Below, piece after piece: positions 33,694 through 38,559 of a stretch of DNA of 64,000 nucleotides (positions are counted from its first letter, which is position 1; every line of letters begins with the position of its first letter). Source of the stretch: Muribaculaceae bacterium (GTDB lineage: Bacteria; Bacteroidota; Bacteroidia; Bacteroidales; Muribaculaceae); assembly GCA_022509105.1 (NCBI GenBank), contig JAFLTV010000005.1, positions 1-64,000 of the forward strand, in the 5' to 3' direction. The position numbers were made by a program, and so were the translations under genes. The notes below the pieces were generated by a model that saw nothing but the letters and a program-made list of their open reading frames with translations, was not told the DNA's origin and did not search any database.

Positions 33694-36600
33694 ATGAACA
33701 AATTACCAATAAAACTGCTGTTTCTTTTTATTTTTATATTCATTGCCAAAAGCGGCCACTGCCAACCTCAAACTCCTGAGCCGATTTATCCGATACCCAC
33801 TCCTCAACAGGTTGACTGGCAGGATATGGAGATGTACGCTTTCCTTCATTATTCCCTCAATACATACACGGATCAGGAATGGGGCTATGGCAACGAAGAC
33901 CCCTCTCTTTTCAATCCGGAAGACCTGGATGTGGAGCAATGGGTAGAGGTTTGCAAACAAGCCGGCATGAAAGGGATTATCCTCACTGCCAAACATCATT
34001 GCGGCTTTTGTCTATGGCCCTCAGAGTTCACCGAATACAGCGTTAAAAACTCTCCCTGGAAAAATGGCCGGGGCGACGTTGTCGGCGAGCTTGCGGAGGC
34101 CTGCAAAAAGGCAGGGTTGAAATTTGCAGTCTATCTCTCTCCGTGGGACCGCAACCATAAGGATTATGGCAACACGGAATATATTGATTATTTCCGAAAC
34201 CAACTGGAGGAATTGCTCACAAATTACGGCGATATATTCGAAGTCTGGTTTGATGGCGCTAACGGCGGCACAGGCTGGTATGGAGGGTCCGACGAAGACC
34301 GGGTTATCGACAAGAAAAGCTATTATCAATGGCCGGCAACCTACGAAATGATACGGAAGCTCCAGCCCGACGTGATGATATGGAATGACGGAGGCACCCG
34401 GGGTGATTTAAGATGGGTGGGCACCGAAGCCGGAAATGTGGGAGAAACAAACTGGAGCCTTTTAAACAAAGAGGGGGATGTTTCCTGGGACATGCTCCAT
34501 TATGGTCTTGAAGAGGGCGACAGCTGGGTGCCCGGAGAAACCAACACAAGCATCAGGCCCGGATGGTTTTATCATACCACGGAAGACGGGAATGTGAAAA
34601 GTCTTTCCAAGCTTATGGACACATACTATAAGTCGGTGGGAAGAAATTCCACATTGCTGCTGAATTTCCCTATCATGCCGTCGGGCAGAATACATCCTAC
34701 AGACAGCCTCAGAGGAGTTTTGTTTGCCGAGATGATTGCCAAGACATTCGAAAAAAATCTGGCTGAAGGCTCAAAAATAAAGGCTGACAATTTCAGGAAC
34801 AATGACTCGAAATATAACGCCGGCAACCTTATAGATGAAAATCCTGACACCTATTGGTCCACAGACGACGGAGTTTGCCGGGGCGTGGTAGAAATTGAGT
34901 TTCCCCAACCTACGGCTTTCGACAGATTTTTGGTTGAAGAATATATTCCTTTAGGTCAAAGGGTGAAAAAATTTCACCTTGAAGCCAAAGTTGACAATGA
35001 ATGGATACCGCTTCAGGATGAATTATCGGAATCGGGCGACGGCATGACCACAATCGGCCATCGACGCATCATCTGTTTCCCGGAAGTAGAAGCCACAAAT
35101 CTCCGGTTTACAATTGATGACAGCAAAGCCTCTCCCCTCATTTCTAAAATCGGCGTTTATAACGCTCCTGAAATTGAAAAGGATCTTCCTGAAAATGGAG
35201 AGAAACTATCTTCCGACCTGCATATTTTTTTCGGAGGCAACAATCAGATATTCATAGATCTCGATAAGGTTGAAAATGTGAAAGGATTGAGATATCTGCC
35301 TCCTCAGAAGGGCTCTGAAGGAACTATTTTAAACTATTCCATCTATATTTCGCCCGATTGGAGCAATTGGGAGAAGGTGGCCTCGGGTGAATTTTCAAAT
35401 ATCATCAATAACCCCATCTGGCAAAAGGTGGATTTTCCCGGAATGAAAGGTAAAATCATCCGGCTTGAGGCCGACAGGATGGAGGGGAACCGCATCGCAT
35501 ACGAAGACATTGAAATTCTGACAGAAGAACCGTTGCCTTCACCCGACTGGGAGAATCCCGAGATTATCGGAATAAATAAGCTTCCCTATCACGCCACATT
35601 GGGACTTCCATCGCAATCTCATCCTGAGATGAAATCTCTCGACGGAGTCTGGAAGTTTAAATGGTCGAAGGATCCTGACAGCCGTCCCGCTGGATTTGAG
35701 AGCATGGATTTCAATGGAGAAGAGTGGGAGAATATAATCGTGCCCGGAAACTGGCAGACCCAAAATTTCGGCAAACCAATATATAGCAATATCCCCTATC
35801 CTTTTCAAAGAGACCAGCCGAAAGTCACATCCGAACCTCCGGCTGACTGGTATGCTTATGAAAACCGCAATCCTGTGGGCTCTTACATAACTTATTTCGA
35901 TATCCCGGAGGAGATTCCTGCCGACAAGGATTTCATACTTCATTTCGGCGGCGTGGAATCGGCGATGTATGTATGGGTAAACGGTGAGAAAGTCGGCTAT
36001 AGCCAGAATTCAATGTCGCCCGCAGAGTTCGATATCACAGAATTTGTAAGACCCGGAAGAAACAAACTCGCAGTGGAAGTTTACAGATGGTCAGACGGAA
36101 GCTATCTGGAAGACCAGGATATGTGGCGTTTAAGCGGAATTTTCCGCCCTGTTGAACTATGGGAAAGGCCAAAGACACGCATTGCCGACTATAGCCTTAT
36201 AGCTGAGCCCTTCGATAATTTCTCGAAGGCGAAAGTGGGCGCTGAAATAAAGACTCTGAATATAGCCCCCGCAAATCCCGGACTTTATCTATACCTGAAC
36301 ATATCCGGGGAAAATGCCCTTGGCGAACCTGTTGATGTGGTTTTAAAACAACCATTCTCCAATGAGCCCGAAGATCTGGTTAAAATCACTGCCGACATTG
36401 ACAATCCTATATTGTGGTCGGCTGAAAAACCTTATTTATACAAAGGATATCTCACTTTGTCGGATGGAGCCGGAACTGAGATAGAAAAATTTGATTTCAA
36501 TTTAGGGATAAAGAAAGTTGAGACCGTAGGCGAGATTTTATACATCAACGGAACTCCCGTGAAACTAAGAGGGGTTAACCGTCATGATCATCATCCCAGA

Positions 36601-38559
36601 ACAGGGCGCTATGTGGATAAGGCCACATTGGAAAAAGATATCCGGCTGATGAAGCAGGCCAACATCAATTTTCTGCGCACTTCGCATTATCCCGACATGC
36701 CTTATCTTTATGAACTATGCGATATTTACGGCATTTACGTCATGGATGAGGCCAATCAGGAATCACACGGATATGACATAGAAAACACGATTATCGGAGA
36801 CAATCCTCTCTGGAAGGCCGCTCACGTAGACAGGGCCGTTTCTCTTGTGGAACGGGATAAGAATCATCCTTCAGTTATTTTCTGGTCGCTTGGTAATGAG
36901 GGAGGGGCCGGAAGGAATTTCAAAGCCATGTATGACACCATCGTTTCTCTTGATCCGACCCGGCTTCCCTATTGCGACAGCGACAAACAGTATTCCGCGA
37001 TTTATGATGAGGCTTATATGCCGCCTGACAGCCTCCGGGTTTATGCCCAAAGGATATCCGACAAGCCATTCATGATGAGAGAATATGCGCATGCCATGGG
37101 TAATTCGGTCGGCGGACTTCAGGAATATTGGGATATTATTTACGCTGATCCAAGCATTGCCGGAGCTGCTATCTGGGACTGGGTTGACCAGGGTCTTGCC
37201 AAACCGATTGACGGCAGCCCTTTAAGATACTCCTCATCCTTGAAGCTGGAGGATGATGAATTCTGGGCTTACGGCGGAGATTTCGGTGACAAGCCTAATG
37301 ATGCCAACTTCATGATTAACGGTCTTTTGGCTCCCGACCGAACTCCACATCCTCATTATTATGAAGTTAAACATGTTTATCAGCCTGTGAATTTCTGCAT
37401 GGAAGACAATGCCATGATTCTGACTAACAGAAATTATTTCACCGGCCTCGATGAATATGATTATACTCTTCAAATCCTGGAAAACGGCAACCCCATTAAG
37501 ACCTTAAACGCCGACCTTAAAGGGGATAGAATAATGTTTCCGGATTTCTCTGGCCTTGAGGGAGAAGTGGTTATCAACGTGGATGCAAGATTAAAGAAAG
37601 ATGAGCTCTGGGCTCCCCAAGGTTTCAGTGTTGCCTCCGCCCAGTTCATTCTGAAGGAAGGGGACAAAAATCCTGTGGCTGTCAATAAGTTTAAACCCGA
37701 AATCAGAAAGAATAAAAAGGAATATAGCGTGAAACTGGGCGACAGTTCTTTGAAATTCGGAGCAAACGGCGAACTTGAAGAGTGGGAATTAAATGGTGCC
37801 AATCTTATCCAGGAGCCTTTGGAACCTTATTTCTGGAAACCTGAAAACGATAATCAGAACTGGATGAGCGGATATTCCCGGAAATTGGCTTGCTGGATGG
37901 ATGCCGCCACCAAAAGAAAGCTCATCAAGATGGAAAAAGTGAATAACGATAATCATGAGGGCTTGAAATATCTGTTTGAACTTCCGGTAGGAGCTCGTTA
38001 TTCGGTGACATATCTTTTCACGGGTCCGGATGAAATAACAGTCACTTGTGATTACTCTCCTTATGCCGATACCATACCCAACATGCCTAAATTCGGAATG
38101 AGGATGAGATTGCCGGCTGATTTCCGCAACATTTCTTATTATGGTCGCGGACCGCTCGAAAACTATCCTGACAGAAAAATGAGCCAGAGAATAGGTAAAT
38201 ATTCCACTACTGTAGACAATTATCAAACCGAATATGTGAAGCCGCAAGATAACGGGAACCGCTCTGACGTCAGATGGTTTGAAATATCCTCTCCGGAAGC
38301 AACTCTGAAGATTGAAGGAGAGAATCCATTGAACATCAGGGCCTGGGATTATGGCGAAGAGAATCTTGGAGTCCGCCACAAACATGAAATGACAACCGGA
38401 GATTTCATAAACCTGAATATTGACAATACCATTCATGGCGTAGGCGGCATCAATTCTTTCGGAGCCTGGACGCTTGATAAATACACTATCGACGGCAACA
38501 AACCCCAGAACTATACTTTTAAAATCAAGGCTTACCCTGAAGCCGAAAATACCAAATAA
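33694..38559 (+). CDS. GH29 alpha-fucosidase fused to LacZ-type GH2 beta-galactosidase
   Basis: 1621 residues with a signal peptide (1-23). Residues ~30-365: GH29 barrel, with [14 protein letters not shown] and nucleophile D187 in [10 protein letters not shown]. ~370-615: an F5/8C-like beta-sandwich ([15 protein letters not shown]) plus a second sandwich. ~620 onward: a whole GH2: jelly roll ([28 protein letters not shown]), Ig-like domains, barrel with acid/base E1069 (WSLGNEGG) and nucleophile E1130 ([10 protein letters not shown]), and the LacZ small-chain domain ([12 protein letters not shown]) to the end. Both active sites look intact. Acting in turn they would strip fucose then galactose from Fuc-Gal-Xyl side chains. 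The single gene has its own promoter and terminators; the reading frame is continuous, so it is a real fusion. Confidence 0.9.

Follow-up and report, generated by a model that had tools for sequence, protein, structure and literature searches.

A GH29-GH2 fusion gene in a xyloglucan utilization locus of a Muribaculaceae bacterium

Why would a gut bacterium carry a fucosidase-type and a β-galactosidase-type enzyme on a single polypeptide? The question is raised by a gene at positions 33694-38559 (+) of contig JAFLTV010000005.1 of a Muribaculaceae bacterium (assembly GCA_022509105.1), of which the first 64,000 nucleotides were analysed and are referred to below as the window. An earlier note on this DNA had described a glycoside hydrolase family 29 (GH29) enzyme and a LacZ-type GH2 enzyme in one uninterrupted frame of 1621 residues, both with complete catalytic centres and with F5/8C-like modules between them, and all of this was borne out. 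The frame extends from the ATG at 33694 to the stop codon at 38559 with zero internal stops over its 1621 residues. Its Pfam matches, the coordinates of which mark best-scoring stretches, follow in the order Alpha_L_fucos (residues 41-337), two F5/8C-type modules (378-472 and 517-599), Glyco_hydro_2_N (646-826), Glyco_hydro_2 (828-939), Glyco_hydro_2_C (946-1234), LacZ_4 (1243-1320) and Bgal_small_N (1351-1611). On the DNA (all +), the GH29 catalytic domain occupies 33814-34704, with the nucleophile at D187 and, as an addition to the earlier description, the acid/base at E245; the two β-sandwich modules, about residues 360-609 and arranged as in the solved structure 5k9h, occupy 34771-35520; and the LacZ-type half, residues 618-1621 with acid/base E1069 and nucleophile E1130, occupies 35545-38556. 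The seam is an eight-residue linker, TEEPLPSP (residues 610-617; 35521-35544), which joins the GH29 end EDIEIL to the mature LacZ start DWENP. The G+C content is 46.2% on the 5' side of the seam vs 45.2% on the 3' side. A signal peptide was recognized by eye at about residues 1-23 (33694-33762, +); as His precedes Cys at 23 it has no lipobox, and the protein is predicted to be probably periplasmic. The predicted structure model (mean predicted local distance difference test score 60.5, predicted template modelling score 0.37) was not good enough for the active sites to be located in it.

The fused gene is not confined to the window. A scan of genome contigs returned 19 related loci, four of which (L005, L006, L009 and L015, all assigned to the window's family, f1) hold the two enzymes in one frame. 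Whole-genome surveys, which overlap and which scored just a handful of top candidates in each genome, detected the fused frame in 6 of 397 genomes of the family (G000, which is the window's, G091, G008, G126, G109 and G341) and in 4 of 111 genomes of the genus (G000, G091, G008 and G069). No fusion besides the window's own gene was found in an order-level sample of 393 genomes, nor in a class-level sample of 395 genomes queried with the GH29 half, 48 of which had a match. In total, seven genomes including the window's carry the fusion, and they belong to four genera (g1, g4, g10 and g27). Two of the genes end at a contig edge, that of G341 being broken within LacZ and that of G069 having its GH29 part reduced to the final 182 residues. 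Loss of a catalytic residue, which the earlier note had proposed to look for by alignment, was not seen in any fused gene: the GH29 motifs are intact in all six with the catalytic domain present and the GH2 motifs in all seven, the window's gene included. Since the fused frame recurs in the assemblies of other species, a frameshift or a chimeric assembly is very unlikely, and an error at the junction was rejected on the strength of the single frame in six other genomes.

Three reported frame lengths disagreed with the sequence, and none of these was counted as a fusion. In G014 the survey gave a frame of 1670 codons, but stops are present between the GH29 and LacZ genes; the GH29 of G483 measured 1322 in the survey vs 696 on re-reading; and that of G012, flagged with two TGA codons, was re-read as an open frame of 618 codons. 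Long LacZ frames of about 1500-1560 codons also appeared in the genus survey. Nine such or nearby loci were fetched, and the scan covered seven proteins of five of them (L129, L133, L136, L134 and L135), with L130, L131, L132 and L137 outside it; no hidden GH29 was found in these seven proteins. The LacZ proteins of L129, L133 and L136 bear a C-terminal F5/8C module, and those of L134 and L135 bear N-terminal ricin-type lectin modules. The suspicion that the pairing is not a standard architecture held up insofar as a GH29-GH2 pairing was not found named in the open-licence literature, the search having left InterPro and CAZy aside. Proteins with two catalytic domains are present in other polysaccharide utilization loci (PULs), as passages on CE15-GH8 and GH43-GH8 enzymes describe (PMC8417218, PMC6193987); they belong to other families, whereas both domains of the window's fusion are of exo-acting type and would possibly act on one side chain. 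The fusion is thus real and shared, and is another variant among the already known multicatalytic PUL enzymes.

The GH29 half (PF01120, 131.5 bits) has 5k9h as its best solved match, followed by 8ayr, 4zrx and 3ues. When this half was queried separately, the 591-residue chain of 5k9h, which we take to be 0940_GH29 of rumen origin, aligned with residues 24-362 and 400-608 at 902 bits. The two share the GH29 subfamily B (GH29B) domain followed by two β-sandwich modules, but 5k9h stops where the GH29 part of the window's protein ends and has no GH2. By its sequence the half is assigned to subfamily B. D187, in the motif WFDGANG, is kept in all 29 aligned GH29 rows, as are E245, which lies opposite position 217 of 3ues, and W241, the Trp of the galactose subsite. 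W241 precedes E245 by four residues, the spacing given for W211 and E215 of SpGH29 in excerpts of PMC10154630. A further residue, N284, is present in 27 of the 29 rows, with Asp in two Pedobacter rows as in 3ues; Asp is likewise found at this place in 8ayr, 4zrx and 3mo4, and Asn in 5k9h. We would guess, from spacing and with the SpGH29 chain outside the alignments, that N284 is the counterpart of SpGH29 Asp257.

The second half is classed as a full LacZ-type GH2, with the five-domain order and both catalytic glutamates. Its best solved matches were 6sd0/6s6z (664 bits) and 3muy (508 bits); we take 6s6z/6sd0 to be from Thermotoga maritima, 1dp0 and 3muy from Escherichia coli, and 3bga from Bacteroides. 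E1069 and E1130 align with the two catalytic Glu of the E. coli LacZ chain, presumably E461 and E537, and E1023 and H1025 lie opposite what we take, by its usual numbering, to be the metal site of that enzyme. Thus the LacZ-type enzymes 6s6z/6sd0, 1dp0 and 3bga share with the window's half the domain order, both Glu and the metal-site residues; the differences are that this half is fused behind a GH29, has no signal peptide of its own, and has Arg for Cys before the nucleophile. This Arg1129, replacing the Cys of E. coli LacZ and several paralogues, was present (REYAHAM) in all 17 rows with the motif visible among 18 LacZ rows. The pattern was matched in 11 of 24 further loci, with Arg in four and Cys in seven, the latter being distant paralogues; because 13 loci gave no match, the Arg/Cys contrast rests on few rows.

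The surroundings of the gene agree with the xyloglucan locus and the strand arrangement proposed earlier. The fusion lies on the plus strand between PUL genes on the minus strand, divergent from a GH31 gene starting at 33578 and convergent with a GH5 gene ending at 38680. The left arm (23754-33578, -) encodes a GDSL esterase, GH3, a BoGH43A-like GH43, GH2 and a BoGH31A-like GH31, and the right arm (38680-52606, -) a GH5 with BACON, two proteins of 898 and 649 residues without an assignment, SusD, SusC and a GH95 with a fucosidase-type His. The GH31 and GH43 matched BoGH31A (1410 bits) and BoGH43A (624 bits) best, and the GH5 had as its best match cel5D, presumably a xyloglucanase, and as its third an exo-xyloglucanase. 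Because of these best solved matches and the SusC/D pair, the locus is assigned as a xyloglucan PUL; it holds the gene set of such a PUL, a SusC/SusD pair with GH5, GH31, GH43, GH3 and GH2. In G091 and G008 the fused gene occupies the same slot between GH31 and GH5, and in G109, of another genus, it adjoins GH31, with GH2 and GH3 nearby. The xyloglucan locus of Bacteroides ovatus, whose enzymes are the best matches of the window's GH31 and GH43, to our knowledge contains no GH29. The Cellvibrio japonicus xyloglucan locus includes a GH95 that is an α-1,2-fucosidase on xyloglucan oligosaccharides, and GH29 goes unmentioned in the passages that describe it (PMC4285296).

The GH95 of the window (50117-52606, -) has His where 4ufc, which we take to be BACOVA_03438, has Thr. 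The 4ufc sequence fits Thr370, Asn372 and Asn374 of PMC4491172, a section of which cautiously proposes this Thr/His position as a marker of L-galactosidase vs fucosidase. The motif was visible in all 15 genes examined, with His in three PUL-linked genes (G000, G091 and G040) and Thr in the xylan-type PUL of L094; among the window's gene, L094 and L104-L117, Thr and His sort by locus type. Seven of eight genomes searched have a His-type GH95, and G069 (67% complete) showed a Thr-type only, one fragment lying outside the examination. As GH95 itself was found in all eight, a GH29 standing in for an absent GH95 was rejected.

How the fusion arose can be read in part from its unfused relatives. A signal-like hydrophobic stretch lies just ahead of the DWENP-like start in 16 of 17 unfused LacZ proteins (by eye; L058 was unreadable), and unfused GH29 proteins mostly stop just past an EDIEIL-like strand. 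In all seven fused genes the GH29 end is joined to the mature LacZ start by a short linker. The fusion may thus have formed when a GH29 gene lost its stop and was joined to a LacZ gene that lost its signal peptide. The two are neighbours, GH29 first, in L008, L010, L016, L020 and L063; LacZ precedes GH29 in L090, two genes separate them in L091, and in the remaining unfused relatives the stretch examined includes either GH29 or LacZ alone. The same GH29 carries an N-terminal GH43-like fusion in L016 (8423-11725, +; 1100 residues), the counterpart of which in L008 is a separate gene, 91% identical, with a four-base overlap with GH29. In L038 (G025), near a contig end, a GH29 of 547 codons, 72% identical to the window's, stops after the first module.

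Trees of both halves (27 and 32 hand-chosen rows, G069 being only in the GH2 tree) placed the fused genes in two groups, one with the window, G091, G008 and G126 and the other with G341, G109 and G069. A single clade of all fused genes was rejected by the approximately unbiased test for both halves (p 7.6e-69, 6 fused vs 16 other rows, and p 3.2e-67, 7 vs 18; 22 and 25 rows in all), to which long branches and recombination may contribute. Fusion, fission or replacement has therefore occurred several times in this family, as judged from these trees. Within the first group, G040 is unfused: its GH29 stands alone between GH31 and GH5 of the same PUL, and its LacZ, with a signal peptide, is on another contig. 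Within the second, the LacZ of G092 stands alone and has a signal peptide; over 652 residues its identity to the fused LacZ of G069 is 91%. Fission alone is the less simple account, because the signal peptide would have to be regained.

Recombination has probably also acted within the gene. In bins of 40 residues, the fusion of G008 is 82-98% identical to G040 over residues 30-309 vs 60-90% to G091; bins 310-509 are mixed, and from about residue 510 it is closer to G091, with 89-100% identity in 21 of 25 bins past the seam. In the nucleotide comparison the similarity to G091 (mostly 86-94%) extends across GH5, the genes for the 898- and 649-residue proteins and part of SusD. The switch near residue 510 points to a crossover probably inside the fusion gene, ahead of the seam, so that the galactosidase half probably travelled with the SusD-side arm. 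In L015 (9872-23000) the PUL is a mosaic, its left arm closer to G040 and its right arm, from within the fusion gene, closer to G091.

The function that we favour for the fusion is the removal of a cap in two steps in the periplasm. Terminal α-L-fucose would be cut from an imported oligosaccharide by the GH29 half, and the β-D-galactose thus exposed would then be cut by the attached LacZ half, in an obligatory order. In the window's species a fucosylated oligosaccharide of xyloglucan would be the likeliest substrate, given that the PUL around the gene is of the xyloglucan type and that relatives share this placement. Fusion would probably pay by holding the two activities at a 1:1 dosage and exporting them together; their proximity may help as well. 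We consider this periplasmic removal of fucose and then galactose from xyloglucan-derived oligosaccharides about as apt to be right as wrong. The order proposed in the earlier note has precedents for both candidate substrates: according to a passage of PMC4285296 a xyloglucan β-galactosidase left XXFG uncut, and an excerpt of PMC9522356 describes a Bacteroides massiliensis GH2 that cannot cut plant Lewis A until a GH29 fucosidase has acted. In that bacterium, too, two activities follow a forced order on one branch, but they are separate proteins there and one chain in the window. The assignment of those steps to this enzyme is less secure, and several findings weigh against it. The PUL already has a second GH2, and GH95 was present in every genome searched; with the His-type GH95 and the other GH2 in the locus, either step could be the work of an enzyme other than the fusion. 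GH29B enzymes usually favour α-1,3/4 linkages (PMC10154630, in part), and the fucose of xyloglucan is α-1,2-linked, although the same excerpts note that the A/B split is not always predictive of linkage. Among the unfused relatives, several belong to PULs of the complex-xylan type and others adjoin non-PUL genes. Neither SusC nor SusD was found when the 20-kb piece of G109 was searched with those of the window, and the fusion of G126 adjoins housekeeping genes, its other flank being cut by the contig end.

The subfamily assignment and the galactose-subsite Trp, W241, in all 29 rows (PMC10154630, in part) would also suit a Lewis A or plant N-glycan-type fucosylated galactoside, for which the B. 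massiliensis enzymes supply the order of action (PMC9522356, in excerpt); in addition, the pair lies beside non-PUL genes in L010 and L020, where seven neighbours scanned included no glycoside hydrolase and one TonB-dependent receptor (L020). We nevertheless regard such a substrate as quite improbable. The gene is located in a xyloglucan PUL, and N284 stands where 8ayr, 4zrx, 3ues and 3mo4 have Asp, though 5k9h also has Asn. The plant N-glycan gene set is incomplete in the window's genome (88.85% complete), in which searches for GH20 and GH92 gave no match, and this argues against N-glycans. GH92 is also missing in G126 and G341, yet GH20 was found in six and GH92 in four of the seven fused genomes. 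A search for PNGase, the controls of which gave no match, carries no weight on this question. An unlikely alternative is that the GH29 half acts on α-L-galactose or some other L-sugar, found either in complex xylan or in xyloglucan that bears L-galactose, and that an unusual β-galactoside or an α-L-arabinopyranoside is the target of the GH2 half. The neighbours of unfused relatives point in this direction (GH43, GH31, GH97 and Thr-type GH95 in L094; GH115 and GH43 in L091; GH43 in L008; GH115 in L016; GH97 in L090), since such families occur in the complex-xylan locus PUL-XylL, whose GH95 is an α-L-galactosidase (PMC4491172, in part). So do the α-galactosidase activity reported for some GH29 enzymes, BT2192 included (excerpts of PMC10154630), and the membership of the LacZ half in the clade whose nucleophile is preceded by Arg and not by Cys; however, the readable loci of the fused genes are mostly xyloglucan-linked, and GH95 in G000 and G126 is exclusively of the His type.

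The fusion might also be without functional meaning, adjacent genes for unrelated side chains having merged by loss of a stop and been tolerated since both products are periplasmic. Fused and unfused forms do alternate on the trees, the standalone LacZ of G092 stays very close to a fused one, G040 keeps the GH29 in its slot without the LacZ, and in L016 the same GH29 is joined to a GH43. Against this stand the identical seam in two separate groups, the conserved catalytic residues of both halves, and GH29-LacZ neighbours among distant paralogues, so that mere tolerance seems a rather poor candidate. These paralogues, in G016 and G022 of the window's genus (L134 1076-6099, +; L135 2496-7504, -), form a second kind of neighbour pair, with a GH29 of about 480 residues and about 40% identity and a LacZ with N-terminal ricin-type lectin modules. 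That even remote relatives of the two enzymes are encoded side by side suggests a functional partnership that extends beyond this gene.

More tentatively, and with more doubt than belief, we propose that the bacteria with the fusion have repeatedly joined two unusual enzymes, a GH29B and a LacZ with Arg beside its nucleophile, at the same seam; that the target would be a fucosylated galactoside handled neither by GH95 nor by the ordinary PUL GH2; and that the arrangement may have spread through recombination swapping the galactosidase half together with its SusD-side neighbours. If confirmed, the system would serve as a natural experiment on the purpose of enzyme fusion, as the same two enzymes are fused, adjacent and apart in related species; the closely similar standalone LacZ and the syntenic locus with GH29 alone provide the material for comparison. 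It would also tell for which fucosylated plant structure a GH29B is needed in a xyloglucan locus that already holds a GH95.

Some smaller features of the locus were also noted. The two proteins of the right arm at 40175-42871 and 42892-44841 (-) had no Pfam family above the cut-off, and the second matches the uncharacterised 5jmb at residues 31-112. Identity to their counterparts in G091 and G008 is about 45% and 55%, vs 81-91% for SusD and SusC, and they are possible surface glycan-binding proteins. Upstream of the fusion gene, 33658-33665 (+) reads TAATTTTG, a possible -7 promoter element by its agreement with TAnnTTTG, which we take to be the Bacteroidota -7 consensus. The fusion and GH5 genes converge on an inverted repeat at 38620-38651, a probable two-way terminator for both.

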